This document shows positions 1,401-64,000 of a stretch of 64,000 bases of DNA, in pieces. Position 1 is the stretch's first letter. The number at the start of each line of letters is the position of its first letter. Location of the stretch: the NCBI GenBank assembly GCA_950295325.1, contig OX485803.1, positions 26,040,001 through 26,104,000 on the forward strand, written 5' to 3'. The stretch is from Polytrichum commune. Taxonomy: Eukaryota; Streptophyta; Polytrichopsida; Polytrichales; Polytrichaceae. The notes below the pieces were generated by a model, which saw nothing but the letters and a program-made list of their open reading frames with translations, did no database searches and was not told where the DNA came from. Position numbers and translations under genes: made by a program.

Positions 1401-3982
1401 GCGTGGACTGGTAGTAGTGGTACTGTGTAGTGTAATGCCAAGCGGTGCTTGAAGGAGGTCGGTTTAGTCAACATCTACCGGTCGAGAAGTAGTACCATTG
1501 ACATTATAAACGACACTTTGGAAACAGACAGGCATGTGATTGTGTTATGTGGGAGACGCCGTGCATGAAGCAAGAATCAACCACTTGTACTTACTGCACC
1601 TAGCTTGCTTATAGGTAAGCATGTCATGAGTTCCTACACCATTTGTAGCTGCCGGAAGTAGTTGTAGTACTACTACTAGCACTGTCGATGAGTTTTTTAA
1701 CTCCAATAAACTGCTGTCAAATTTAACACAAATGGCGGAACTCAATGAATGAAGCATTGAGTTCCGTGTTACTGCAACCCAATATTGTCATCAGAGTCCA
1801 CACACCGCTGCGGCAGGCCAGGACTCAGCCGGTTGATCAACCAAGCCCTTGTAGACTACCTATTAAGTTATACACATGAATGCATGCATAAGAGTCCGTA
1901 TCTTCATATCATTTGCAGTCAGTGTCCTACTCCTGGTGTTTAATAAATAGACACTTGGTAGAGCAGATTGATGTTTTGACATATTCTTGGACACGGTGAC
2001 AAGTGTTCAAGCAGCTGGGGCGGTGGAATTCCAATCTCCTCTGGAAGGATGGTTCCTCTTCACCAAAATGCCCACCTTTGCAATTCAACAATTCTCGCAC
2101 TAATTAATGAGACTTGTCATCTCACCTAATACCTATGCAGGATCATAATTTCCATTAATGTGTAGGTACTTGTGACAGTTCATTACCCCTTTCCTGGCAT
2201 TATTCAACACTAGGGTGGTGCACCCCTAGAGTCAAGAATTTTGGGAATTTATAATTAATAATACCCCGCTTATGTCGCATCTTGCTATTGCAAAATGAAC
2301 AATATTTCACCCAAGTAATCCTCATCTAACAAGGGCAAACCAGCTGCTGGTTCAAACCTTGGTTCAATCAGAGCCATGGATATAATTACATCATCGTTCA
2401 TGACACCAATATGACGGCATATCACCGTGTATGTCATATTGACATACACGGTATACACGGCATATAGTGTATGTCAATATGTATGCTTGATCAAGATGTA
2501 TAACCAAATTAGGTACGTCTACCTTAGTTATGAGCTGGTTGGTATTAGCCACATACTTTATAATTTCACAAAAGAATTTTAATATACAAAACCAATTGTA
2601 GTCTAAACAGCGAACAAAACGGGGTACCTAGGAGCACCACACGTGGACTGATGATAATCATATTTTGGATCTAGGGAGGCATGATATTCAATATGGATTT
2701 TGATGAGATCATAGGCACATGCCATTTTTAAATTTATAGTGCCAACAGCCAAAATATTTGAGTCATTTTGTCATTTAAAATTATTAAAGAAAAAAAAAAG
2801 GGCAATGGCAATGGCCCTTAGCTCTCTCCCAATGGCACTTTTGTCTGTCATTCGAAAAATTTATGGCAATGGCATCAAAAACATAGAATAAAACATGATA
2901 ACTTCCAATATGTAATGGTGCACAAAATCGGAGACTCACCAGAATCACACAAGCACAACCAAACATAGTATATACCCATCCCTCTCTCTTTACCTATTTT
3001 GTAATTATGGTAACACTTAATGATAATAAAATCAATCATACACTATGATCAAACAATATTTGGCATCTGATGCTCAACGCCTATTCATCTACCTCATTTA
3101 TGCTAATCAAATCTGAATTGGATGAAACTTTAACGGAAATTTTAGATGGTAGTAGCGCACCGTGTAGCCAGATTGCACATGTCCTATTGATAGCCATCAT
3201 AAATGGCCATTGTCCCTTCTAACAAGGGTACACATGGAGTAGGTTCTGTGCATTATTTTTGCATTACCCCGCAAATTTCAACTCATTTAGACCCATTCAA
3301 ACCATGGATTAAGCCGCATCCCTCTCTAATTGCAATAAAAATCAATTGTGCACAAGAATGGTCAAACATGATAAGAGTCATTCAATGCCCAACTCCTATT
3401 CATCCACCATGATTGTTTAACATGTGCACAAGGTAAATGTTTAACATTTGCACAAGGTAGATGTTTAACATGTTGTTGTTATTTAAGTCTTTGCCAAGGA
3501 CATGTTGAACATTTACCTTGTGCAAAGATTTAAATGACAACAACAAAGGCATGTGTTTTGGCTGTATGGCCTAAAATAGTTCTCATCATAAACCAGGCAC
3601 ATGTTTAGACCATGCTCTTTAAACATGGCTTAGACCAATAGAAGACATTGAGGACAACACCATGTTAAGGCTACGCGGCTTAAATATGGAGTTGACTAGT
3701 GGAAGTTTGACTTCAAGATCAGTTTCATGTTAGGATGTGCATCACATATGAACCAATAAAACTTCTAAGCGTAAATGATAATAGTATAATAGGATGTACT
3801 ATATTTATATATTTACTATCCCAAAGGACTCTAATCAATGATCATGTTTGATCCTAGAGTAAAAAATTGTTTGTATTACAATTAGAGAGGGAAGTGACCT
3901 AATTTATACTTGAGTGGGTCCGATTGAGTTGACATTCATGGGGTAGCTTAAACATAATGTTAATAAAAACCATGGAAACATC
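1401..3982. other. Intergenic, AT-rich; degenerate repeats only
   Basis: No gene seen. About 2960-3090 and 3308-3412 look like a diverged direct repeat: both run from 'catccctctct' through AT-rich text to 'cctattcatc(t/c)acc'. Around 2400-2485 there are short palindromes built from 'tatgtcaatat' and 'atacacggta'. Confidence 0.4.
3415..3560. repeat. Imperfect inverted repeat
   Basis: A block repeating 'cacaaggta(a/g)atgtttaaca' faces its reverse complement ('tgttgaacatttaccttgtgca') across a short spacer, and 'ttgttgttatttaa' faces 'ttaaatgacaacaa'. This would fold into a long hairpin and looks like a decayed fold-back insertion. No target duplication found. Confidence 0.45.
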
Positions 3983-21727: not shown

Positions 21728-23080
21728 GCCGGACGCTAAAGAACCCCTATCGAGCTCTGTGCGCCTAAGAATCCGCGTCTCTTGGCCCACGTGTCAGTGC
21801 CCAAACCATAACTTTTTGGACCTGCCCACGATGTTGCCCGCACCTTGCCAGACCGGATGGAACCTTGGACGGAGTTCGCTCCAACGACGTTAGTCATCAT
21901 GTTTCATGTTTCATGTTTCATATGAAAACTTTGTGATAGTAGTCGGTATTAACTATATTAACTATATATATATATAATATTAAACTATTCAATTAAAAAA
22001 AATCATTCATTTGAGTTTCATTTTAGATTGACAATGTCCCTTTCAATTGTAAGTGATAAAAATTACAACCTCAATGCTAATGAGGATTTTGTAATATTTT
22101 TGACTTTCAAGTTTATTACATGCTTTATTGGCGGTTTCACTTTGAAAATGAAATCCAATCAATTGCTTATTTACTCATTGAAAGTGAACATATATATTGG
22201 ATTTGAGACCTTAAAAATGAAGTGCACTCAATATGGGATTTGTGGACAAGTAGCCTTCAAAAATGCAAGTACAATAGTTTTTTTGGAGTCGGGCGGGCGG
22301 GCAACAGTTTTCAGTCGGGTGCAGAAAAACTGACGGGCAGCTGCCCCTGACAGAATATTCCCCCCCCCTCGAAAAGTTCGCGGGGGGTACTTAACGTCCT
22401 CCACCTGGATGTAGTGCATAACACATTTGTAAATTTGATTATGATGTATGACACATTCACAAATTTGGATCAAGTGCATGACACATTTGAATATGACGCA
22501 TGACACATTTGTAAATTTGGATCTTGTGCATGACACATTTGTAAATATGAAAATGACGCATGACATATTTGTAAATCTGGATCTTGTGCATGAGACATTT
22601 GTAAATATGAATATGACGCATGACATATTTATAAATATAGATCTGGTGCATGACACGTTTGTAAATTTGGATCTAGTGCATGACACATTCGTAAACATGA
22701 ATATGACGGATGACACATTTGTAAATTTGGATTTAGTGCATAACACATTTGTGGATTTGGGACCGGCGTATAACACATTCCAAAGATTTTGATGCATAAC
22801 ACATTCCGCAAATATCGTTTGCATAACACATTAGCAAATGTGGTTGAAAACCGATGGGAAGGAGATAGGGAACGTTCCCAATGCTCGGAAGAGGGTCCAT
22901 GGCTCGAAGCATGACTAACGTCGTTGGAGCTAACTCCGTCCAAGGTTCCATCCGGTCTGGCAAGGTGCGGGCAACATCGTGGGCATGTCCAAAAAGTTAT
23001 GGTTTGGGCATTGACACGTGGGCCAAGGGACGCGGATTCTTAGGCGCACAGAGCTCGATAGGGGTTCTTTAGCGTCCGGC
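21728..23080. mobile_element. Mutator-like element (MULE), 1353 bp, 170-bp TIRs, 9-bp target duplication
   Basis: ATGGCGAAG stands at 21719-21727 and again at 23081-23089. The element starts GCCGGACGCTAAAGAACCCC. Its first 170 bp (21728-21897) and last 170 bp (22911-23080) are inverted copies with about four mismatches by eye. Long TIRs plus a 9-bp duplication are the signature of Mutator-like elements, and near-identical arms with a perfect duplication suggest a young insertion. The interior has no transposase frame. It holds a segment shared with 13887-14170 and a 30-bp tandem array, so the element is non-autonomous. Confidence 0.85.
22405..22815. repeat. 30-bp tandem array, about 13 units, inside the MULE
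   Basis: Units of 30 bp around 'gcatgacacatttgtaaat', decaying at both edges. Alternate units differ ('ttggatcttg' against 'atgaaaatgac'), giving a 60-bp higher-order period. Because 30 is divisible by 3, frames stay open on both strands (plus 22448-22792, ten-residue repeat VHDTFVNLDL; minus 22228-22824). I see no start context, codon signal or domain that makes either a gene. Confidence 0.85.
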
Positions 23081-24613: not shown

Positions 24614-24671
24614 TTAGTCGTGGTTGTTCGAGTCTCTTGCGTACGAGCACTGGGTGTTTATATAAACTATC

Positions 24672-25348
24672 CCTCGAGGCCGAAAGCAAAATCATGTCCA
24701 AATTCGTTTTTGAGATCGTAGTGCAAACTGGTTGAGAAGCTCATTAATAGGGGAACAATGCGTCTTATGGTACATCTGTCCGTACGGATGGAAGCTTTGT
24801 GGAGTTAGGATTGTCTGCACTAGTTTCTAGCCGTCAGTGTGTCTGATATCAAAAGATTACAATGTGAATGTGAATGTTGATGTTGTTGGGCATCGGGTTG
24901 TTTGGATAAGAACGTCCACCTCGGCCTTTAGGGGTTAAGCTCATGTTACATTATGTGAATTGCCTCGATATATGTTGTTCGTGCACATGTCTTGTTTTCA
25001 GTCAAAGCCCTCAAGGCCGAAGGCAAAATCGTCTCCAAATTCGTTTTTTAAATCGTAGTGCAAACCAGTTGAGAAGCTCATTAATAGGGGAATAGTGACT
25101 CTTATGATAGATCTGTCTATACAGATGGAAGCTTTGTGGAGTTAGGATTGTCTACACCAGTTGTTAGATGTCCGTGTGTGTGATATCAAAAGATTATAAT
25201 GTGAAAGTGAATGTTAATGTTGTTGGGTATTGGGTTGTTTGGATAAGAACGTCCACCTTGGTCTTTAGAGGTTAAACTCATGTTACATTATGTGAGCTGC
25301 CTCAATATATGTTGTTCGTGCACATGTCTTGTTTTTTTCAGTCAAATA
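24672..25348. repeat. Tandem duplication of about 336 bp
   Basis: 24672-25007 is repeated at 25008-25348, with matching text throughout: 'aggccgaa', 'gagaagctcattaatagggg', 'gatggaagctttgtggagtt', 'gttgtttggataagaacgtc' and 'gcacatgtcttgttt'. Two adjacent copies with moderate divergence. No frame crosses both. Confidence 0.75.
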
Positions 25349-51665: not shown

Positions 51666-53142
51666 CTTCGTATTTGTGTTCATAAATTGAAGGTTGAATG
51701 TTGTATATACCTGGTAGAGAGATCAAAAGCTAGAATTGAATAAGTTGGTGTTAGAATAAATGATGTCCTTCTAATTTGATGGGATGCTTGCAAAGTATAT
51801 TAGTGTGGTTATTGGGTTGTAGGGCTAGTGAATCCCTACCCCTATGGGTGAGGAGAAATATCTTCATCTAGGTGTATTTTAAACTCTTCAAGTTCAAAGA
51901 TTACCTATGTGCATCCAACAAAGATAATGGTACATTTTTAAATATTTTGTAACTCCAATACATATATATCTTATTGGTTTCAACGAGTTGTTTTTTTAAA
52001 TCTTTTAGAAATCTCCAAGGATTAGGTGCTCAAGTCTCTCAAGTTTATGTTCCCTTAAGATCCTAATGTCAAGGTTAAATGTCTTGGAGAGAAAGTCCAA
52101 ATTTCCAACATCTTTTTCAATACCTAATATCATGTGTAAAACTTTCATTCACTTCATAACTTGCATGGCATATATCAAAATTCCTTCTATTAAATTTTAA
52201 TTCCAAACATATTTAGTTAAGGTTCAAGATCTTCACATAAGTACATAACTATAATATGAGTATATCCCCTCATTTATTTATCCCAAAATTCAGTTAGATT
52301 TGTATGATATTTTTTATGATGTGAAATCCTAGTTTGTATCTAAGACGAGGTGACAAATGATTTGGCCTACTTGACAACCTTTCATGATCCTCCTCTAAAT
52401 TTGAATTCATTTTCAAATGATAGTTTCCGCATGTTTCAATTGGATTTCACCAGTTATTTCTAAGTTAATTTCAAGGTATCAAATCCAATGCTAATCAAGA
52501 GGTGCATTGTCGGTAGAAAAATCAAAGTTAACTTGTCAATTCAAGTTTTGGTACTAGCCAAAAAATTGGAATTCATTCCTTATATTTCATTTCTCAAAGT
52601 TTTCACATTTTTCTTTTTTGTTATGTCTGGTAATATCTAAGCCTTTAATGAGTTTTATGAAGCTTTTAACTTTTAATTTCACATACCTTTGTTGTAATCT
52701 CTAAGTTTGAACACTATATTCATTAATCGGAGACTTTGGAAAGTCTCAAAATAAAATATGCCCATAGTTTGGGATGCCAATATTGTGAGCATACGGAACA
52801 TTGGGAACATTGGGAACATGACGATTTACGAATTCGCACGTGGAGAATATTCACAGTACTAAAAATAGCAAGTCATTGAATTATAATGAAAACATGAACT
52901 TCAAGTGGAAAATAACAATCGAATCTCAAAAACAAATGAATTTATGTCATTATAGAGTTTAGGGTGCGCATCCCATATATAAGGGTCTTATGGAATTTGA
53001 TGGCACATCCCAAACGTATGCCACAGTTGAATGTGGCAAGTCTACTATGTCTATTAAAAACCAAGAATAAACACGCGCCCATGTTTTTTGCCATTAACTC
53101 CCACCTACGTTATGTTTACCCATCTCCATCTTCCGCTTCATA
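51666..53142. other. Intergenic, no gene seen
   Basis: AT-rich. Around 52797-52818 'acattggga' repeats in short tandem. Confidence 0.35.
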
Positions 53143-56100
53143 TCAATTCTCGGCGTCGTTTTCCACAGCTGCAATACGTGCCAAGTTGTCTTTGGCAAAA
53201 TCTATATGTTTTGGAAGGATGGTCATTGTTTCTGATTTAGAACCCCTGCGCGGCTTCCAAGCACAAAGTATGGTATCCGTTGTCGTAATGTAAATACGTA
53301 CATTATTTACATGTGTATGTATTTTGTGTTTCATGGTGATTCCTTCATTTGGAGATGAAGGAGGAAAGTAAAAGGGAGTAGAATTAGATTACCTTTTTTG
53401 TTCCTCATAGTTATTCTTAGTAACTTTTAGTTTTTATTTTATTTTTTTTATCTATTTTTTTTACTCTTAGTTTACTCTTATTACCCTTTTAGCCTTATTT
53501 CTAGTTTTATCCTTAGTTTATCTTTAGACCAATGGATAATTAGAAATCACGTGATGAGGATAAGAGGAGGATTTGAGGCCTTATCTCCTATATGTGGTTG
53601 AGGAGAAGAGAGTGGGGAGAGACAAGTTTTTTGGAAGCTTGACGGTTGTTGTGTGTGTTTTTTTTGGAGAAGAAAACTTGAAATAAAATATGCAATTGAG
53701 TTTTCATGTGATTGTTTTATCTTGAGTGTTTACATGCTTGAAGGAGAGTGAGCGAAAACAAAGTTGTGCTAGTTTGAGTGGAGGGAAGTTTGCTAGCTCT
53801 TGCATAGAAAGAGCTGAGACTTCGACCGTCCACAAAAAGATGGACAAGTCTTTGTTGGCAACAATCCTTTGAGAGAGTAAGACTTATTGATAGATTTGTT
53901 TTGTAAAGATTTGAAAGATTGAGGAAGTTTTGAGGACAATTGAAGATTCGACGGTCTGGCGAGCGAAACCAGTTGCAGCCAGAAGCTCCGTGCTTTCCTA
54001 AAGCGGACCCCTCTCTCCACGACACCGTGTTTATCCAAACCGGTCCGTAAGCTGAATCCACTGATATCTCTATTGTTGAAAACCATGGTGTCATACTCGA
54101 GAACCGTCAAACAACTTTGTAACTAAAATCTTTGTGTCAAAGTCGTACGGGTGTCGCCACCAAGTGTCATCAAAGCCGAGCGAATGCGATCCCAATACGC
54201 GATCAACGGTTCATGGGTATCTCTAACACGTCTGGTGATGTTCTCCTCGTACAATTCTTTCCAATATTCAATGAATCAGAATATGCCTTTGATGATTTCC
54301 GGCCCATTCCTCATGGGGTCGGGTTTGCAAGGCTTTGGTTCTCCATTTGGGAGCAAACATTTCTTATCCTTGTCTTGATGTCATACAAGTATACCATCAT
54401 CAGGGCCCCAATTAAGAGATGTGCACAAAAGCTTGAATTGCATGGTTGAAACACCATCATCCCTCATATAGAATCGGAATTGTTGTGTTTTGGTATGTCC
54501 CACCAAACGGTCCCCTCCCTTCAACATGTATGGCTTGATGAAGGCCTTGAAATTTGGTATTTCCTCAATCATGTGCGGGATATCACCGGCATATAGTCTA
54601 AATCCATATATGATTTCATAAGAAGTGGTATGGTCGGAAAATCTTCCTCATGCAACTTCATACTCTAACGTCCGAATGACACATCAATGTTGTTGTGTGT
54701 GTGCCTCACCATCAAGAGAGACACAAACACCTCTTTGAAGATTCATTTCGCCACGAGCAATGACCAAAAACAAAATACGTATCAACATTTGTTGTCATTT
54801 GCACAATTATCAAGTTGAATGTGGAGAGTTGGAGGCAATGGTTTTGAACAAATGGGTTCTCCGGGTGGTTCCGACAATGACGACATACAAACCTCCTTCC
54901 CCGCAAGCACTGCCTCATAAAGGGGTGTCGTTCCACAACCATCAAAAAGTGCACGGGAAGAATGTACCGGTGGCTTCTCAAGATCGCGCAAGAGTTTTGT
55001 AAATGAACCCACCGTGTGGTTAACATCCCAGGGTAAAAATCCAAACCATAATGAGCATACTTAACGTCCCCATGGCCGTGGATAATCATACCTGGAAAAA
55101 CAAACGATGCATGAACAAATATATGTAATAACCACTATACAGATGTATAGAGTTGGACATTTGCCAAACACACCCAAAAAATTTGGATAGACTTTGAATA
55201 CCTAGTTGTGATTTCATACAAACCAGTGACAGCTTATGAGTCCAAAATGAATGCTCATATTTGTTTTATGTTTAGAATTTATTTAGAATTGCATTTGGAG
55301 TGTTATTAAAACAATCAAAAGTATAAAAAGAGTGAGGCTTGGTGTGGTTCATGTTTTAGGCCTTAAGCCTATTTTGTATGGTTAAGTAGAAGTTTAGTGA
55401 CATTAGGGAGTGTTTGGTAAGTGAGTAGTGTTTGATGAAGCAAGAGGAAGGTCCTTGGATTTAAATGTTTGAATTAGAACATGCTCTTGTTGGTTTAGAG
55501 GGTGAGGATTTAGTGGATAGGATAAGGTCCTACTAAGTAGGAGAAGATTAAGGGGTTTGTAGTCTTGGGTGCCTTCTCCTCCTCCTCCTCCCCTCCTTTC
55601 ACTTCTCTCTTCTCTTCTTCCTCTTCCTCTTCTTCTCCTCTCTCTCTCTCCCCCTCCTCTCTAGGATTTTGAGCTCTTAGAGTTAGGAAAAAATGTGTGA
55701 ATTAGTAAAGAGGGTATTAGGGGATTTAGTGTGATTAGGTAGGAATATTAATAAGAGGGTCTTGTGGAGATTAGTGAGGCCAAGTAGAGGATTAGTGTGG
55801 TTAATTAGGATTTGAATACTAAGTTGGGATAGTAAGGGTCTGCCGAGGCAGGTTTAAGGAGGCAGCTGCAAATACTAAGCTGGGACAGTAAGGGTCTGCC
55901 GAGGCAGGTTTAAGGAGGCAGCTGAAATACTAAGCTGGGACAGTAAGGGTCTGCCGAGGCAGGTCTAAGAAGGCAGCTGAAATACTAAGCTGGGACAGTA
56001 AGGATCTGCCGAGGAGGTTTAAGGAGGCAACTGAATTACTAGGTTGGGACATCAAGGGCCTGCCGAGGAGGGTCTAAGGAGGCAGCTGAAATACTAAGCT

Positions 56101-58040
56101 GGGACAGTAAGGGTCTGCCGAGGAGGGTTTAAGGAGGCAGCTGAAATACTAAGTTGGGACGGTGAGGCAGCTGCCGGGACAGTTGGGGCCAAGGCGATAT
56201 AAAGGAGGGAGCTGTGGTGCCACATTAGACTAAGGAATAGATAGTTAATTAGGCGGTCACTCAATATTAGTTTACATAATTAGTTGTTAGTAAGCTAGGA
56301 GAACAAGAAGTAGTGGATGGTAGGATTAGCGGTTGAATGTGGGGTGTGAATGATATTGGGTAGCAATAGGGGTTGTTATGATTGGGATAATATAGAAGAG
56401 CGTTTGTCAACGCTTGTAATATTATCGTGGAATGGATTGGTGTGCAATGATTGATGGGAATTGTAATGGAGTCTCACGAATTTGGTAAAATGGAGTATGG
56501 AAACATGAATGTGATACCCATTCCCTTACCCAGACTAGGACGCTTAAGGGTGGGTGGTTTGGCCTCACATAGCTACGGACAACTTGAAAAACCCATCCGT
56601 GGCCTTTATTTTGCGTGCATAATAAAGGCATGCGGTCTTGGCGTGGTCCATATTATCATGGATGATTGTCACAACCTCTGTGGGCCTCATTATGGATAGA
56701 GCATGATTCTTGTAGTAAACTTGATGGTGTGCCTTTTGGTTGTTGACATGCTCAATATATTTTGTCTGGTGTCTGGTATGAGATTATGTGCCTATGGGGT
56801 GGGCGTCTCGAAGACCTTTGTATTTTTCACACGTCGTACACCTGGCAAACTTGTCCCCGGGTCTCTTCAAAATGTATTCTGCAAACTGTTGGTTTTTAAT
56901 CACACTCAACTTGGACAAAGAAATGGGCCCACATCCCGCTATGCGACCCACTTGGTTGATGTCCGTTAATATGTTCTTTCATTTTGTGCCCGTGGGCAAC
57001 ACCATTTGAACAACTTTTTCCCCTGATGACAATGTCCTCGTCTTGTGGGGCATTACATCGGCCAATGGCACTATGATGGTGGAGAGTGTCGCAGAGGCTT
57101 GAAGTGTAGCCTCCCTAGGTTTCTTTGTGCCCGAGTTGCCATGAAATTGAGAGCGAAGACCCATCGATGAATACTTCCTAAACCTATAAAAGTCAGCCTT
57201 GGAGACAGCATGGATGATATACCAAGCTGTACAACACACTTCCACATTCTCAAGGATCACCACCTTATGGCCATGGGTATCAATGTGTAAATTTTTGTGG
57301 ACCTCGAGTTTCTTTGCAGATCTCATACAAAAATCCGCAAGCCACATCTCTTAACGAAAAGACCTAATTTTTTCGCGTGGAAAGAATTGGTAACATTTCC
57401 TCGCGCAACAGTCTTTGGCGGACACGAGACGGATAGAATCGTCTCCCAATATGTGATCCCGTCATCGCTACTTGTCACCGCGAGGCACGCGGTTAGAATC
57501 ATATCTGCGGAGGCCTTTGCGAGGAGGTAATTTGGCCAACAAAGCTGATTGCGTTTGTTTGTGCCGCCGCCCTTGATCCCACAAGCTTACTTCTTCATGT
57601 AGAACTCGACGAAGGGACCATCGACACAAGGAAAATCTCCACGTCACCGGAACCTCAAGTGGAAGCAAATAATTCAAGATGCACACACGAACATCATCGG
57701 CACCGAGGGGGTTGGCATCAACACAATCACGAGGATCGGAGTTTCTACATATGTCATTTGCCACCGGGACACCAAGGTCGTTAAGTAGAACGACATCAAG
57801 GCCCACCCATTGCTCTTTTTCGAAACCCGCGCACAACGGAATGTCATCGTGGTCATCCCCGGAATGTAGAGATTGTTCGGGCCCTTCAAAAGACTCATGG
57901 GAGGATGCATCCACAGGCACCCCCACCACGTTTGTAACGTCGGTACTGTCCGCCGACGTGAAAAATAGTTCGCATTCACTATCGGAGGACGATGCATTAG
58001 TCGACAACTCCAATGAAATATCTCCCACATGCATCACCAT
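53143..58040 (-). pseudogene. Transposase-like gene (family known to me as DUF7869), multiply broken
   Basis: Minus-strand relic. Start ATG at 58040, then an acidic Ser/Asp-rich N-terminus to about 57470. Conserved blocks follow: a Cys-rich DCCARKC segment (about 57390); VEVCCTAWYIIHAVSKADFY, helix-turn-helix-like (57180-57250); KSQFHGN-type SQFHGNSGTKKPRE; GCGPISLSKLSVIKNQQF; CTTCEKY (about 56823-56842); IHDNMDHAKTA (about 56635-56672); HGHGDVKYAHYGLDFYP; HIQLDNCANDNK (54785-54826); HTHNNIDVSFGR (54683-54703); MLKGGDRLVGHTKTQQFRFY; GGDTRTTLTQ. A stretch ending FAKDNLARIAAVEN (53143-53334) may be the C-terminus. Breaks: TGA after LPTGTK, TGA at 54782-54784, TGA before IFKEVF, TAG after SFGR, a frameshift after GLDFYP. 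55.10-56.57 kb looks like an intron, with a TTTTCCAG acceptor near 55091. D...D...H/D spacing suggests an RNase-H-fold transposase; that is inference. Confidence 0.72.
55816..56175. repeat. About 55-bp tandem array, 6-7 units, within the probable intron
   Basis: Units begin 'aatactaagctgggacagta', pass through 'agggtctgccgaggcagg' and end 'taaggaggcagctga'. Variation is by single bases and small indels. It lies between two coding blocks of the transposase-like relic, so it is intronic or part of an insertion. A C/T-rich run (55570-55660) lies just beyond. Confidence 0.85.
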
Positions 58041-58191
58041 TGTACCTAAACAAACAATCATCGCATGAACAAACAACAATCATCGCAATGTTTAGAAGAG
58101 CGCACAAATTATCTATCTAAATATATGGCCCAGAACTCACAAACAACTCTTGGGGCACCAATGGGAGGCCCTCACACACAAAGACGAACGC

Positions 58192-58606
58192 CTCGGGGAG
58201 TGCACTTAAAGTTAAGACTAGGAATCACGTGAGTGCGTACTTTTGACCCCCCTATGTATGTACTAAAAAATCATCTAAAAATTGTAAAAAAAATATGAAG
58301 TTGTTAAACACAATCTAAAATTCTTGTTGTATAAATTTCAAAAAATAATCAATTGTAAATATTTTTAAATTGATTTTTGAAGCAAAAAACAATGCATTTT
58401 AGTTCAAACTTCTATCATTTTTTTTAATGATTTTTTAAAAACTTTTCGTCCTGAAATTTATACCAAGTGATAGATATATACGTAATGATTTGGCACTTAA
58501 AAAGTCTTAATTTAAAAACTATTTTAAGACCAAGTATTGTAGGGGGTATGCCATTAAAACGCACTCACGTGTATTCCTAATCTTAACTTTAAGTGCACTC
58601 CCCGAG
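58192..58606. mobile_element. 415-bp MITE inserted in a palindrome, 8-bp target duplication
   Basis: ACGAACGC at 58184-58191 and 58607-58614. Termini CTCGGGGAGTGCACTTAAAG, an inverted match extending about 45 bp with few changes. Removing the element restores ACGAACGCACGTTCG, the core of the palindrome family at 58.8-59.9 kb. Its CTCGGGG terminus resembles that of 60346-61657. hAT by duplication length. Confidence 0.88.
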
Positions 58607-58778
58607 ACGAACGCACGTTCGAAAAGAATACAAAGACATGGAAACACTGTAGGATAATCCCATGGCAGTTGACACTAGCATCACATTGAGATATATATCA
58701 TTCGTGAAGGGTGTCGATATGATTTGTGCAACCATGGCGAGGGTTGCACACCAAAGGACAGGTTACTCAAAACTGTAG

Positions 58779-59875
58779 ACGAACGCACGGATGAAAAAAC
58801 TCAACCCAATCAATGATGAAATGTGCATGGGAAATGGAATACGCAATTTTGAGAAGCACCCAATACTCATATTTACGACCTTGTCCGCATGCAATAAGCA
58901 TAACTATAGGAACCTCCCGAATGATATGGGTGGAAGACCTAATAGTCGTCTGCACACTACAATATGCATGTCAATCACCGTAAAGATAAAGACAGTCCCA
59001 TATGGGAAATATAAATGGTAGTGTGTATACACCCCACATATGTTTGCGGCGGTTATGCTTACGAACAGCCGTTTGTAAGCTCTTGCTAAAATAGTATATG
59101 TAAAAAACACTTGGACCCGTCGCAACTTCGATAACTCAGGCCATACGTTATTTGAAGACATGCCACCATGTCTATCGGGGCAAATGACAGGTTGTACCAC
59201 ATCCCGACGTTCCATTGTAAATCAGGGAACGGCATATTTATGAACGTGCGTACATAAGTTCTCTGCCCTACTGTGTGGTTATATGCAGGAATGTGTTTGT
59301 CTATAAGTATATTGTTGGATGTGGTGGTCATACTCCTAGGTGGTATTTACGAACGCACGTTCAGAAATTTGGAGAATCTAAGAGTATATGGTTGAAATGG
59401 CCGTGTGGGAAAGACGAACGTCCGTTTGCATATAACTGCCATACTGAAAGTCTGCATAGACGTCAATGAATGATGTTGCTGCATGCGTGTACAATAATCC
59501 CATGTGGTCTTTACGAACGCACGTTCGTAAATCCCCGTCCATCTTATATGCATTTGGAGAAAAAGCAAAATGGTCGAATTACAAACATACATTTTTATGA
59601 TCCTGGTTGGCATATTTACGAACGCGCGTTCGTATATTAGTGACATATGTACTATGAATATGACTATCCATATGCATAGTGCCTATGACTATCAGTATGC
59701 ATACAGTGCATATGACTACCCATATATATATATGTATATATATGGCTCTCTGAGCGCAGACTATGCTCTTATATGGTACTTACAAACGTGCGTTCGTAAA
59801 CTACCCACCATCATTTCTCTGACTCATTTATATATAAGTGACAGGTCGTGTGCTTTACGAACGCGCGTTCGCAAA
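58779..59875. repeat. Cluster of imperfect palindromes, core ACGAACGYRCGTTCGT
   Basis: Copies at 58779, 59058-59079, 59237-59258, 59346-59368, 59414-59431, 59510-59531, 59614-59636, 59779-59800 and 59854-59875, plus the MITE-split copy at 58184/58607. The best is TACGAACGCGCGTTCGTA (59617-59634), a perfect 18-bp palindrome; 59510-59531 has 10-bp arms around a CA centre. Many are preceded by (a/g)tggta or gcatat and a T run. Spacing runs from 65 to 180 bp, so this is not a simple satellite. Sequence between copies is not obviously conserved, whereas the palindromes are. It lies just upstream of the transposase-like gene. Confidence 0.85.
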
Positions 59876-60345
59876 CTTCCGGTATTTATGGCGGTATATG
59901 CGGGGTGTGCAGGTTGTGCAGGTTGTCGTGTACCTGGGAGGTGTGGGGTTGGCGCACACGAAAATGGCTTCCGCGCGCTGCGTCGGGTCTCTAGAGCGCA
60001 CACGGCGTGTACCGCAGAAAAGAGCTTTGCGGTGGGGGGAAGAGCTTTAAGTACTTCTCTACGGTGGTTCAAAATTCCTTGGATGCTCTTTAAAAAGCGG
60101 ATTCCCGCCGCCTACTTTGACCTACCAGTATGGCATTCCATCCATGCGCAATTATATAAATAGCATTATGTAAGGAACATGTATTGCATGCACGCAACTT
60201 AATATTGAAAATATGTAGATCAGTTGCAAACCTTAGGTGTTACCAAGGTCTCTTGAATATAAATATGTATATAATAAATACATAATATCATAATATGATG
60301 CTGGTCAATATAGAATATTAAATGATTTGCGACCAAGGTGTAAGG
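59876..60345. other. Short GC-rich stretch then AT-rich spacer
   Basis: 59880-60120 is G/C-rich (tandem 'gtgcaggtt', then 'cgcgcgctgcgtcgg') and open on both strands by composition. No domain is visible in either frame. It could be a remnant of the 5' end of the neighbouring element or a CpG-type promoter; I cannot tell. Confidence 0.3.
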
Positions 60346-61657
60346 CTCGGGGGGGGCACTCCCTTGTATATTTTGCATACACCTGCGATAATGACCTATT
60401 AAAATAGGGGCTATTTACCTATGAGAAAGGATTATAAGGGATGCTAATTTTTGAAATAATGGTAAAATGTTGTGATTATTTGCACCCTATTGGTAATTAT
60501 AAATTCTTGGATGGTTGATTTTATGGTACCCTATATTACTTATATGTATTTTTTTCCCCTGATTGCCCCCATTCCTTAAAGTGTATGATACAGTAGAATT
60601 CTCGTTAGAAGCACATGTACAGAGTAAGAGAAACAAACATTTACTAGGGTTTAGGGTTCAGGGTCACACTGAAGTCCGGGAAAAGCAAAACACTAAACAA
60701 TAACAACAAAAGATTGCAATTACATGTCATTAAGCAACACGAGCCAACGAATAAAAGTTGTGTTGGATAACACAGTTAGAAACCTTGAGGTCTTAGGGAA
60801 CACTCCAGCCACATGTGTCTCAAAGTCACATTTACAAGGTTTGCAGAATCCCTACAATTGATGCCTTGATCTTCCAATCCTACACATTGGAGGAAAATCC
60901 CACGCCATGCAAGCAAAATCCACCTAAACTAGCTAGGCTACCATTTACACATGTGGGAGATATGAGGGTACTCGAACTGAAATGAATACTATAGATTTCA
61001 AGGTATACTAATGATCATTCAGCCCTTTTTCCAAATTATATCTCCACATGTGTGAGATAGTACAAATTTAGCAAGTTTTATTTTTTATTTGAAATGAACT
61101 CATTCAATGAGTTTGCATCTACCTCATCTAAGGTGTAGATTTTGCTAGTTGATTCATACAGTAGAGACATAGTTGAGATAATAGCATCCACATCAACCCA
61201 CACACAGTCACTCTCAACATACTTATATTTGTTGAGACCCGGTTGTTTTTTGAACCAATGGAGGTAAGCCATAGCAGTTGGGAAGAGCATTTCTCTATTT
61301 CCGTTATGGACTGCACGTTTCATCAAGTCAATGGGTTGCCAACAATTGCCCCACTTAGTACCAACCTTCACCCTTATCTTTTGAACCCTTCCTATATAGA
61401 ACATGCCATATTTTGGTGGCAAAGTATTTAATTTTTGAAACTATCGCTTTTTCTCCATGCTATTTTATATGTACCACTTAGGTAATTTAATCATGTTTTG
61501 TCAAATGCTATATTACATATAATCATGTTTCACAATCCTAGAGCACCCTATACTACATCTAATAATTTACAAATTTTACGCCAAATTTTTATACAAGACC
61601 CTATATTTTATCGCACGTAGTTCCTACGTTTTTCGCCAGTGCCCCCCCCCCCCCGAG
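60346..61657. mobile_element. hAT-like element, 1312 bp, carrying a 114-codon frame
   Basis: GTGTAAGG at 60338-60345 and 61658-61665. Termini CTCGGGGGGGGCACT and, reverse-complemented, CTCGG plus a longer G run, then CACTGG. Both outer parts match the shorter element at 3983-4736, which lacks the coding frame. No transposase. The 8-bp duplication suggests hAT. Confidence 0.75.
61078..61422 (-). CDS. Hypothetical protein frame carried inside the hAT-like element
   Basis: An intact 114-codon frame starting MPPKYGMFYIGRVQKIRVKV and ending in stop TAA at 61078-61080. It reads like real protein: mixed charge, Trp and Gly in blocks (KVGTKWGNCWQPIDLMKRAV), then FPTAMAYLHWFKKQPG and DCVWVDVDAIISTMSLLYE. 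Composition differs from the AT-rich frames nearby. I do not recognise a named domain. The WVDVDAI stretch recalls hydrophobic/acidic blocks near the C-termini of CACTA-associated proteins, but this is a weak likeness. It lies wholly inside the TIR element and has no counterpart in the shorter relative, so it may be captured gene sequence or part of the lost transposon protein. It could also be one exon of a longer product. Confidence 0.4.
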   Translation of the reverse strand: MPPKYGMFYIGRVQKIRVKVGTKWGNCWQPIDLMKRAVHNGNREMLFPTAMAYLHWFKKQPGLNKYKYVESDCVWVDVDAIISTMSLLYESTSKIYTLDEVDANSLNEFISNKK

Positions 61658-61665
61658 GTGTAAGG

Positions 61666-61715
61666 TCCAAGTTAATTGACAATGTAGACCTAATATATGT
61701 GATTATGTGTGTATC

Positions 61716-61751
<36 letters not shown>

Positions 61752-62460
61752 AAATAAGGTAAACTCGGGTAAAAACATGTTGTGGAGGCCCCTAAAATTA
61801 TAGGGATGATCATATGATTCACATCGAAACATGCCCGTAATATGCTCACAAGTGCATGAAAACCATTAAAAAGATGGGTTAATCCATAATGGCTTGTACT
61901 AGGGTAGATTGAGGATAATATGAATCTAATCATACCTAGATGTAAGTTAGGACTTAATTCAAATGTAACCCTAGGTATGAAAATAATGAATTAAAATAGC
62001 ATGTGTGGAAATGTTTAATTAATTTGGAATGGTCAATATGATAGAGTAATCATAAGAAATGAAACCATACTTACGACAAGTCACACTTAAAATTATGTGT
62101 TTTACATCTTACGAGAAGTATGTGCATGCTCATAGATAAAAATGTTGATTTAAACTAAAGTCTTAAGACATGCATGTTATAATGAGATTAAGTTTGGATT
62201 GTGTGATCAAATAGCACTCAACAGTATTAAGGGGAAAGATGGAGCATTTCAACACTCACTTTTCACCCGAACCAAAGCTTTCCCCGAAATCTATTAATTT
62301 TGAATCTCAAAATGACAATTGGCATGATTCTCAATTATTATAGTTATTGGGAACCGAATAAAGCAATTTCCAATCCAACCAACATCGGTAGATCATTTTG
62401 ACATGCCCATAGACCACAACATGACCACATATATTGAGAAAGGTTGGTAGGATAAAAAAG
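61666..62460. other. Intergenic, dinucleotide repeats
   Basis: An AT run followed by an AC run at about 61716-61750; otherwise AT-rich with no gene seen. Confidence 0.4.
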
Positions 62461-62469
62461 ATGTAGGGA

Positions 62470-62525
62470 TGCAGGGTTTAGGGTTTAGGGTTTGTGATAG
62501 TTGTGTATGTGGTTTAGGGTTTAGT
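62470..62525. repeat. Interstitial telomere-like repeats
   Basis: Three consecutive gggttta units (62475-62495) and two more at 62510-62524. TTTAGGG is the common plant telomere unit. The run is too short to mean a chromosome end. Confidence 0.7.
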
Positions 62526-62618
62526 CGTTAGTACGATACATTACACACACAAACAATATTGACTCCTAAAAACCCGTATCGCACTAACTTAATTTATGAC
62601 AAGCTCACAGTTGATGGT

Positions 62619-63115
62619 AGCCCCTCTACACAATCTCAAATTGGTCCTTTATGAATGTAATATTTATTTGAAAAACCATGGTTCAAATTGAAAGATATCT
62701 CGTTTATGAAAATTCTATATTTGAAAACATCATATACACATCCTTAGGGGTGTATTCTTCATTGAAAACCTATGATATACATTTGATGCTAGCGAGATAT
62801 CTAACCATATGGCTCATTGGTTAAATGCAATTACATCATTGTTGAAAATTAAAGTTCAATGCACTATACAATCTTTAGTTCAAGTTGACGCCCAATGAAA
62901 TGAATTGACGTCCTATTGGAGATTGAATTTTCCTCCACCTCTTGTAAGAAAACGAATAGCCCCTCTCAACAATCTCAAATTGGGTCCTTTATGTACTATG
63001 TAATATATATTTGAAGAACCATGGTTCAACCTTAAAGTTATCTCATTCATGAAAACTCTATACTGCAGAACACCATATACACATCCTTGGGGGTGGATTC
63101 TTCATCGAAAACCCA
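62619..63115. repeat. Diverged duplication, two units about 338 bp apart
   Basis: 62619-62772 and 62957-63115 share 'caatctcaaattgg', 'aaccatggttcaa', 'catatacacatcctt' and 'gattcttcat(t/c)gaaaacc'-like text. Direct orientation, moderate divergence, no frame. Confidence 0.65.
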
Positions 63116-63299
63116 CTAAATGACATACATTGTGCAATACGAATTAACTTAAGGTTGTTTTTGAAAATATGTTTACAAGGAATCCAATTGTAAATGTACT
63201 AAGGGCATACGGCATACAAAATTCATGTCTTCATACTAAGTTCTTCAAGTTAATGTGATTAATGCTTCCATTACATATTATACATATACATATGATTTA

Positions 63300-63500
63300 C
63301 GCCCCCCTTCATTACATCTACATCCATCTCTGATCGCATTTCCCCCCATCCCCCCATCCCCTGATGTCCCCATCCTATCTCCTCCCATTTCCCCCATCCC
63401 CCCATTTCCCCATGCCATGTGCTTCCATTTTCCCCATCCCCCATCCCCCATCTCCACCCATCCCCCCATCACCCATATGCACTCATCCCCCCATCCTCCC
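63300..63500. repeat. C-rich CCCCAT-type tract
   Basis: About 200 bp of 'ccccatcccc' variants, C-rich on plus and G-rich on minus. Both long frames over it (Pro/His-rich plus, Gly/Met-rich minus) follow from composition. Confidence 0.75.
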
Positions 63501-63599
63501 ATAGGCCACATGGAACGTCGCCATTGGAATGACGGCAATGGACCGTCGCCATCGGCACGACGCCACGTGGCAGCCGTGGGGAAACCCTAACGGCGCTGG

Positions 63600-63946
63600 C
63601 TACCACCCCGCGCCCCTTCTCTCTTCTCCTCATTCTCATTTGGAACAGAGAGAGGAGGAGAGGAGAGCTTAGAATATTCGGAGCGAAGCTCTGTCAGATT
63701 TTAGTCTGCCTTATTTTATTTTGCTTCAAGTTGTGTTTGAGTTGCATATTTCGCTTGAGAGGTGACTTATTGTGAGTAGAGAGGGTTGCAAGATTGTTAG
63801 TAGAGCTGGAGTTTGAATATTGGGGTTTGAAAGCTTGAAGCTTGAAGCTTGTAGCTGCACCAGAATAGGTGCTAGGGTTTCAGACCTTGTACAGCCGCTA
63901 GCCCACGGACTTTTTGGACTAGCGACTAACCTAATAGCTAACAATT
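63600..63946 (+). promoter_or_regulatory. Possible promoter/leader of the coding start at 63947
   Basis: The composition changes here: a GA-rich run (63650-63670), tandem 'gcttgaa' (63833-63850), then a balanced leader with 'gctagcccacgg' and 'ggactagcgac' as a small inverted pair. It reads like a transcribed leader or the 3' part of an LTR; no primer-binding site could be identified. Confidence 0.25.
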
Positions 63947-64000
63947 ATGGCTGAAAACGGTTCTCGAAAAAAATGGGCTTGCCCAGCTATGGCTAGATTG
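63947..64000 (+). CDS. Possible start of a protein-coding gene or retroelement gag, cut by the window edge
   Basis: ATG at 63947 in the context 'acaattatggc' (G at +4) opens 18 codons to the end of the window: MAENGSRKKWACPAMARL. It follows a leader-like region and an apparent promoter change. A basic, short N-terminus of this kind occurs in copia-type gag proteins and in ordinary plant genes alike. Too short to name; the next kilobase to the right would decide. Confidence 0.3.
   Translation, partial: MAENGSRKKWACPAMARL

Follow-up and report, generated by a model that had tools for sequence, protein, structure and literature searches.

Arrays of family-private palindromes in DUF7869 transposons of Polytrichum commune: candidate sites for an element-encoded dimeric protein

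In En/Spm (CACTA) transposons, the element-encoded protein TNPA binds repeated subterminal 12-bp motifs and influences the methylation of its own element; CACTA elements have CACTA termini and a 3-bp target site duplication (TSD). Clustered palindromic sites are also known from the bacterial ParB/parS system. In Arabidopsis VANDAL elements, arrays of VANC motifs are reported to occupy non-coding DNA within introns, between genes and at the termini, and mostly to avoid exons; the motifs differ among related VANDAL families, and the arrays vary by gain and loss of tandem repeats (PMC5735166). Two other reports describe Sola2 elements with 4-bp, AT-rich (AWWT) target duplications and 12-13-bp terminal repeats (PMC3627910), and Muta1 with a terminal palindromic motif and subterminal repeats, a design unlike that of the palindromes considered below (PMC5225508). 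In the literature searched, which was mostly titles and abstracts with few subscription journals, we found neither a transposon with family-private intronic palindromes nor a mention of DUF7869.

The locus analysed here lies in a 64,000-nt stretch of DNA (the window) which, as read from its sequence, carries the left part of a ~16-kb DNA transposon of a family termed P1, with 13-bp terminal repeats and a 4-bp target duplication. As in the VANDAL/VANC system, P1-type elements have private motif arrays in non-coding DNA, including putative introns, and DUF7869 elements have an accessory protein beside the transposase. On the other hand, nothing but DUF7869 scored above the Pfam cut-off in the transposase-type gene, where no MULE model appeared at E ≤ 1, and the elements have terminal inverted repeats (TIRs) with a 4-bp TSD. 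Their motif, a dyad of 20-22 bp whose halves are separated by 2 nt, also contrasts with the directional 9-bp motif of VANC. The VANC domains DUF1985 and DUF287 were absent from ORFs A-D of P1 (E ≤ 1) and from the A/B fragments of the P2-type neighbour of copy E1, as well as from P5 A, P2 A (second half), P3 A (part) and four P4 ORFs (E ≤ 5), the B proteins of P3 and P5 lying outside the scan. By analogy, the DUF7869 system may work in a manner resembling VANDAL/VANC, yet the element is not a VANDAL: the scans found no MULE or VANC domain, its target duplication measures 4 bp and its motif is a dyad. It would resemble TNPA in its element-encoded reader of repeated motifs, a reader that is predicted here, and it differs from CACTA in its termini (AACACTATATTCG), in its 4-bp TSD (9 of 10 paired-end elements) and in its motif arrays, which in the intact copy EB are internal and partly in probable introns where those of CACTA are subterminal. 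The 4-bp TSD (9 of 10 pairs, and EB) and the 13-bp terminal repeats are shared with Sola2 as reported, but none of the nine duplications fits its AWWT target.

The first-pass annotation of the window had described a cluster of about ten palindromes beside a transposase-like gene, and this cluster was confirmed. The 16-mer core at up to 3 mismatches matches eight places in the window, all at 58607-59872, where 0.17 matches would be expected in the whole window and the top value over 100 shuffles was 2. With the centre left free and up to 4 mismatches, ten non-overlapping sites lie within 58184-59875 (Table 1). At this setting the rest of the window holds seven extra places, every one with 4 mismatches, so that the four-mismatch site at 58779 is the least certain. 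The measured spacing is 65-282 bp, wider than the 65-180 bp claimed. Furthermore, the claimed left limit of 58184 corresponds not to a palindrome but to one of two copies of the 8-bp target duplication ACGAACGC, which flanks a 415-bp inverted-repeat element at 58184-58191 and 58607-58614. This element, hAT-like as judged by its 8-bp target duplication, is inserted into the palindrome at 58607. Reading of intact copies gave the P1 motif in full as a 20-22-nt dyad, TTTACGAACG NN CGTTCGTAAA, longer than the 16-mer core. Genome-wide, the exact P1 22-mer occurs at 2909 places (reversed control, 0) and the exact 16-mer core at 3420 (control, 1).

Table 1. Features of the P1-family copy in the window (window positions), and sampled DUF7869 loci (L numbers) with recurrent palindromes.
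Feature	Position or locus	Strand	Basis or remark
Left part of the window's P1-family transposon copy	52710..64000		nucleotide and protein alignment to EA and EB
Left terminal inverted repeat	52710..52738	+	2 mismatches to AACACTATATTCGNTANTNGGAGACTTTT
Transposase-type gene, second part (DUF7869 part, T2)	53119..55193	-	tblastn with EB protein
~1.3-kb insert splitting the T1 frame	55235..56570		missing from intact copies
Transposase-type gene, first part (T1, residues 66-608)	56562..58190	-	tblastn 79%, 546 alignment columns
415-bp inverted-repeat element, ends CTCGGGGAGTGCACTTAAAGTTAAGA	58192..58606		inserted into the 58607 palindrome
P1 palindrome	58607..58622		1 mismatch in 16-mer
Possible decayed P1 palindrome	58779..58794		4 mismatches
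P1 palindrome	59061..59076		2 mismatches, centre free
P1 palindrome	59240..59255		3 mismatches
P1 palindrome	59349..59364		2 mismatches
P1 palindrome	59414..59429		2 mismatches, centre free
P1 palindrome	59513..59528		exact; full 22-mer TTTACGAACGCACGTTCGTAAA exact too
P1 palindrome	59618..59633		exact core
P1 palindrome	59782..59797		1 mismatch
P1 palindrome	59857..59872		1 mismatch
Stretch separating the transposase-side array from the accessory-gene array	59853..63673		aligns piecewise, 75-91%, to other copies
P1 palindrome	L018		recurrent perfect
P2 palindrome	L017		recurrent perfect
CCCACGGGTG palindrome	L014, L015, L021		recurrent perfect
CCCACGGGCG palindrome	L016		recurrent perfect
TTTACGGACG palindrome	L022		recurrent perfect
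GGTGAGGCA palindrome	L019, L050, L054		recurrent perfect

Comparison of copies gave two complete elements, EA (C3; 16,071 bp) and EB (C2:70211817-70227913; 16,097 bp), with the ends AACACTATATTCG...CGAATATAGTGTT. The end pattern was found at 476 genome places against 0 for the control, many of them inverted pairs ~16 kb apart. A 4-bp target duplication is present in nine of ten paired-end elements on C1 (ACCT, CCTA, AAAG, TGAA, TAGT, ATGT, TTGT, CACT and TTCT) and absent from one; it is also absent at the ends of EA. EB sits within a satellite array with AAGT at both flanks, and its joined flanks equal another unit of the array at 27 of 28 bases. The window copy is damaged and broken up by insertions, and continues past the right edge into C1:26104001-26118500, where more palindromes and the accessory exons A-C of the same element are found (L013/L023); no right end turned up in the 14.5 kb that follow the window. 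T2 is left in five pieces with 55-88% identity to the EB protein, this broken DUF7869 copy being placed by tblastn alone. The insert in the T1 frame includes 6.4 tandem copies of a 55-bp unit (55815-56167), and T1 residues 605-636 match at 55138-55233. Between the two arrays, 59853..63673 holds no palindrome at up to 4 mismatches except the last site of the first array at its left edge. Elsewhere, a ~974-bp repeat (L001, C1:2456500-2464499) occurs twice in the E1 copy (left half split) and once near EA.

The transposase-type gene consists of two long minus-strand frames, to the left of the palindromes in the window. In copy E3 its second part matched PF25273 (DUF7869; E = 4e-37, 128 bits against a cut-off of 26), and T1 had no Pfam match above cut-off. 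In the genome, 150 PF25273 matches were scored out of 1489 candidates, all over the curated cut-off. The accessory gene, right of the window, comprises exons A, B and C (probable), followed in intact copies by frame D, which has a phosphatase domain of the NIF type (copy E1, E = 2.9e-16). It is probably a multi-exon gene, with introns taken from splice-like junctions: EB has TTGCAG ahead of the start of A, AAG/GTGAGT at the end of A and TCTCAG ahead of C, and in the intron alignment the A-B intron ends with CAG and the B-C intron begins with ATGGTAAG. Note that all gene models were read from the sequence of a single genome. An endogenous virus had first been considered, as the long ORFs seemed intronless, and was dropped once terminal repeats, target duplications and splice-like junctions had been recognised. 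A search for viral relatives of protein A in a viral contig set gave 85 pattern stretches, none of which was confirmed.

Pfam recognised no DNA-binding domain in P1 A, B, C or T1, and no helix-turn-helix in protein A. Protein A has an IDGQH motif and sub-threshold matches to GmrSD_N (E 0.03; 1/4) and DGQHR (best E 0.14; 2/4), two models that we take to be ParB/Srx-like. This motif, these matches below significance and the clustered palindromes recall ParB/parS; a PDB profile search gave nothing credible (top E 0.015, Cas1, judged spurious). ORF C matched HAUS-augmin3 below the cut-off (E 0.00055, 19.9 bits versus 29.4), which is taken as a coiled coil. By tblastn, accessory protein A is found in P1, P2 and P5 elements; the identity between P1 and P5 is 42% for A, 54% for B and 61% for D, and that between P1 and P2 is 34%, 34-40% and 43%, respectively. 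P3 gave weak yet significant matches to A and B (A at E about 9e-7), and P4 matched A in a pairwise hhalign comparison (E 7e-7, probability 92, 114 columns). T1 is 63% identical between P1 and P5 and 46-68% between P1 and P2.

We then examined where the palindromes lie. In EB, sites with up to 4 mismatches begin between 3858 and 13672 of 16,097 bp, upstream of the transposase-type gene, ahead of exon A, in the A-B and B-C introns, in and after C, and before D; ~3.8 kb on the left and 2.4 kb on the right are without sites, save 6-mismatch resemblances at 3676 and 15302. The first-pass annotation had offered two interpretations of the cluster. A subterminal transposase-binding array was rejected as the main reading by these internal positions, several of them in probable introns, while sites for a dimeric DNA-binding protein are the most likely reading, to which the conserved, family-linked dyads point. 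In a set of seven elements, made up of three P1 subfamily copies plus single P5, P2, P4 and P3 elements, coding sequence holds only 6 of 130 sites at up to 2 mismatches, where 54 would be expected by length, with coding limits that are approximate, being taken from tblastn and ORF ends, and with exon C of P2 unmarked. These six represent two conserved places in the exon C match of the P1 copies EB (L010), P1g2 (L024) and the window's element (L013, L023). At one of them, TTA stands where the palindrome would give the stop TAA, so that by this outer-base change the frame stays open, as read in EB. Two P2 sites (22664 and 22733, in the element neighbouring E1) are inside an open frame outside this coding test, and a P3 palindrome that had seemed close to the DUF7869 domain lies 65 bp beyond the end of the DUF7869 frame, outside that frame and between two exon-like frames. 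A CCCACGGGTGATCACCCGTGGG site was also seen 144 bp beyond the DUF7869 domain match in three copies (L058 (C1:48454084), C1:33993134 and C1:19881006); in the one copy read it lies outside the domain frame and is probably intronic to the transposase-type gene.

The suspected link between the palindromes and the transposase-type gene family was borne out. Among the matches listed on C1, the distance to a listed element terminus is at most 20 kb for 80 of the 86 distinct places of the P1 22-mer and at most 26.2 kb for every one; 7.7% of that C1 stretch lies within 20 kb of such a terminus. For the 16-mer, 55 of the 67 distinct places listed on C1 fall inside the 20-kb limit, and none is farther away than 26.5 kb. 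No motif cluster unlinked to the gene family was seen among the listed 22-mer places on C1, and palindromes were present in every P1-family copy read, that is, in E1, E3, EA, EB, P1g2 and P1c as well as in the window.

Other DUF7869 families carry palindromes of their own. The P2 palindrome, TTTGGGTCG NN CGACCCAAA, was found in a related element adjoining one copy and is the most abundant of five, with 9731 exact genome places, and the P2 family may account for much of the repeat content. The two CCCACGGG forms (CCCACGGGTG/CCCACGGGCG) together have 853 exact places, TTTACGGACG has 1147 and GGTGAGGCA has 155, with 0 for the control in each of these four cases. All five share one design, in which different arms surround a 2-nt centre. 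Specifically, we sampled 15 loci (nine plus six) upstream of DUF7869 matches, guided by the best of these matches, and ten had a recurrent perfect palindrome with a 2-nt centre (Table 1). L020 had 17 GGTGAGGCA sites at up to 1 mismatch and no recurrent perfect palindrome, and no array was found at the remaining four (L049, L051, L052 and L053). In nine control chunks from the first 49.5 kb of the window, no palindrome was present in at least 3 copies. At L019 (P4), an array of a one-sided variant, GGTGAGGCATATGCCCCACC, with ~59-bp units adjoins the perfect-palindrome array.

A cross-table of composites and palindromes at up to 1 mismatch was almost diagonal: composites with an array carry their own palindrome and nearly none of the others. 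The exceptions were E1, which spans two neighbouring elements, EA, with one P2 site outside the element, and the P5 element, with one P1-type site just ahead of exon A. The P1 palindrome (TTTACGAACGNNCGTTCGTAAA) and the P5 palindrome (TTTACGGACGNNCGTCCGTAAA) are alike, a single symmetric base apart, and that of P2 is unlike them. In the A-B intron, the P5 palindrome occupies the same place as that of P1, with the same base switched in both arms, and single sites keep their place in introns whose remaining sequence barely aligns. The T/C choice in CCCACGGG is equal in both arms at 48 of the 50 places listed. The two mixed sites, in which one arm has T and the other C (C1:29505201 and C1:46835593), are possible intermediates between two palindrome specificities.

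These data bear on what reads the palindromes. If they were transposase-binding sites for synapsis or end cutting, comparable with the subterminal arrays of CACTA and hAT elements, the DUF7869 protein would be the reader. An array upstream of the DUF7869 gene recurs in 11 of the 15 loci, a link that is partly by design because the loci were chosen by DUF7869, and both protein and palindrome differ between families; these observations speak in its favour. However, the palindrome-free ends of EB (3.8 and 2.4 kb at up to 4 mismatches), the recurrence of sites in probable introns of the accessory gene, and the terminal repeat common to P1 and P5 elements with their different palindromes make this explanation unlikely.

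We consider it quite improbable that the palindromes act as RNA hairpins in transcripts, controlling splicing, export, polyadenylation or small RNAs. Numerous sites precede exons or fall within probable introns, and pairing would yield a stem of 9 bp closed by a 4-nt loop, which would likewise leave the centre free. Complementary changes make up 15 of the 24 two-arm changes (in P1, 11 of 12), above the one in three expected at random, but one-arm changes number 319 against these 15 complementary and 9 non-complementary ones over the five palindromes. Flank matching at outer position 2 reaches 31 of 41 in P2 (14.6 expected) and 10 of 13 in P5 (5.3 expected), above all 500 shuffles, and the shuffle maximum is reached at position 3 in P1 (39 of 74, 29 expected) and position 1 in P5 (11 of 13); the remaining outer positions show no excess, and tandem copies inflate the counts. 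In addition, the arm sequence is constant over the sites of a family, beyond what pairing alone requires.

To what extent the arms are conserved was determined by comparing EB with other subfamilies. Over the accessory gene, EB and P1g2 are identical at 356 of 400 arm bases, 693 of 1064 other non-coding bases, 3967 of 4759 coding bases and 30 of 40 centre bases; for A-C of EB and the window's element, the values are 113/120, 121/192, 2998/3684 and 8/12, respectively. The arms are thus 89-94% identical across subfamilies, against 63-65% for the other non-coding DNA of this gene, and exceed even its coding sequence, although the sites were selected in EB by consensus fit and the arms are therefore somewhat favoured. 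In the arrays alone, the arms are 72-85% and the spacers 46-52% identical: 153/180 and 228/437 between EB and P1g2, 130/180 and 223/488 for the accessory array between EB and the window's element, and 149/185 and 418/882 for the transposase-side array of the window (58184-59875), in keeping with the earlier remark that the sequence between the cores varies. Note that array sites are not independent, because arrays grow partly through tandem duplication.

In copies that are ~98% alike, on the other hand, palindromes vary as often as other non-coding DNA. In EA, 6 of 272 non-CpG and 3 of 168 CpG positions were changed in palindromes, and 100 of 6033 and 9 of 465 outside; in its first array taken apart, the values were 0/124 and 1/74 in palindromes, and 13/588 and 0/38 outside. 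Constraint is thus visible only across subfamilies. The first-pass annotation had also seen several CpGs surviving in each palindrome. Several CpGs are indeed present in the P1 motif, but the arms of the related P4 palindrome, GGTGAGGCA NN TGCCTCACC, have none, so that CpG is no general feature of the palindromes. As for survival, palindrome CpGs in young copies mutate about as often as other non-coding CpGs, and a high CpG ratio inside palindromes is no evidence because the motif itself contains CpG; protection of CpGs is thus not supported.

The unreduced change rate in young copies would suit palindromes that are a functionless, satellite-like by-product of tandem duplication and gene conversion, as would the ~178-bp array units, which are ~90% alike and vary in number between copies, and the 33-bp spacing of the S6 arrays. 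This origin is nevertheless very improbable, since single sites hold the same intron place where other sequence hardly aligns, accessory-gene arms are conserved above coding sequence, coding sequence is mostly avoided and five different arms keep one design. Least probable of all is that the transposon exploits sites of a host protein (a transcription factor, insulator or silencer), because five nearly family-private palindromes in one genome would need five host readers, and the P1 sites listed sit at or near elements.

With moderate confidence, we propose instead that the palindromes are cis sites for an element-encoded, most likely homodimeric, activator or anti-silencer private to each family, which would restrict expression and mobilisation to copies of that family. 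This proposal starts from four observations: how the elements are built, that the palindrome arms are constrained, that the sites mostly avoid coding sequence, and that the family-private palindromes keep a constant design. From them we infer protein binding, the dimer state, the element-encoded origin of the reader, and activation or loss of silencing. Specifically, the transposon would produce the accessory protein, which would bind to the dyads as a dimer and read a pair of half-sites of 9-10 bp set 2 bp apart. It would do so ahead of the transposase-type gene as well as in the introns and promoter region of the accessory gene. Arrays in the promoters and introns of its own family would then remain active or unmethylated, both genes would be expressed, and copies of that family would be able to move. 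The early links, in which the protein is made and the dyads are bound, would draw on constraint and design, and the later ones, namely activity, loss of methylation and mobility, would follow by analogy with VANC (PMC5735166, PMC10398659). The favoured candidate for the reader is the accessory A-B-C protein, with the transposase-type protein in second place. The palindrome of P1 resembles that of P5 but not that of P2, and the A, B and D proteins of P1 are closer to those of P5 than to those of P2, which favours the accessory protein a little at most; the choice of A/B over the transposase-type protein is accordingly a weak one, suggested by sequence comparison.

A bolder form of this proposal, which we put forward tentatively and consider rather less likely to hold than to fail, is that the DUF7869 superfamily represents an independent second VANC-like system, in which each family has its own dimeric anti-silencing protein and, in its introns and promoters, a matching private palindrome, and specificity moves by symmetric half-site switching throughout a family, giving at least 5 orthogonal pairs and about 14,800 exact sites. 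In its boldest version, a ParB-like DGQH reader would load at the palindrome and spread along the element. If the protein of each family reads its own palindrome only, the genome would hold a natural set of orthogonal DNA-reading pairs and, beside VANDALs, a second case of transposons that evade silencing without disturbing the host. The repeated origin of sequence-private anti-silencing would then become testable, as would the joint shift in specificity of a reader and some 20-30 sites per copy, and such pairs could yield tools for epigenome editing with long sites (20-22 bp) and low off-target activity.

Two minor observations concern other arrays. At L006 (C1:640000-647500), two dense P1 arrays with 44 sites at up to 4 mismatches, many of them 33-34 bp apart, surround ~3 kb without long ORFs, and a family terminus is present at C1:648532; this locus is probably a non-autonomous copy. 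In the window, tandem arrays are present at 22415-22760 (30-bp unit), 24671-25335 (337 bp) and 55815-56167 (55 bp).
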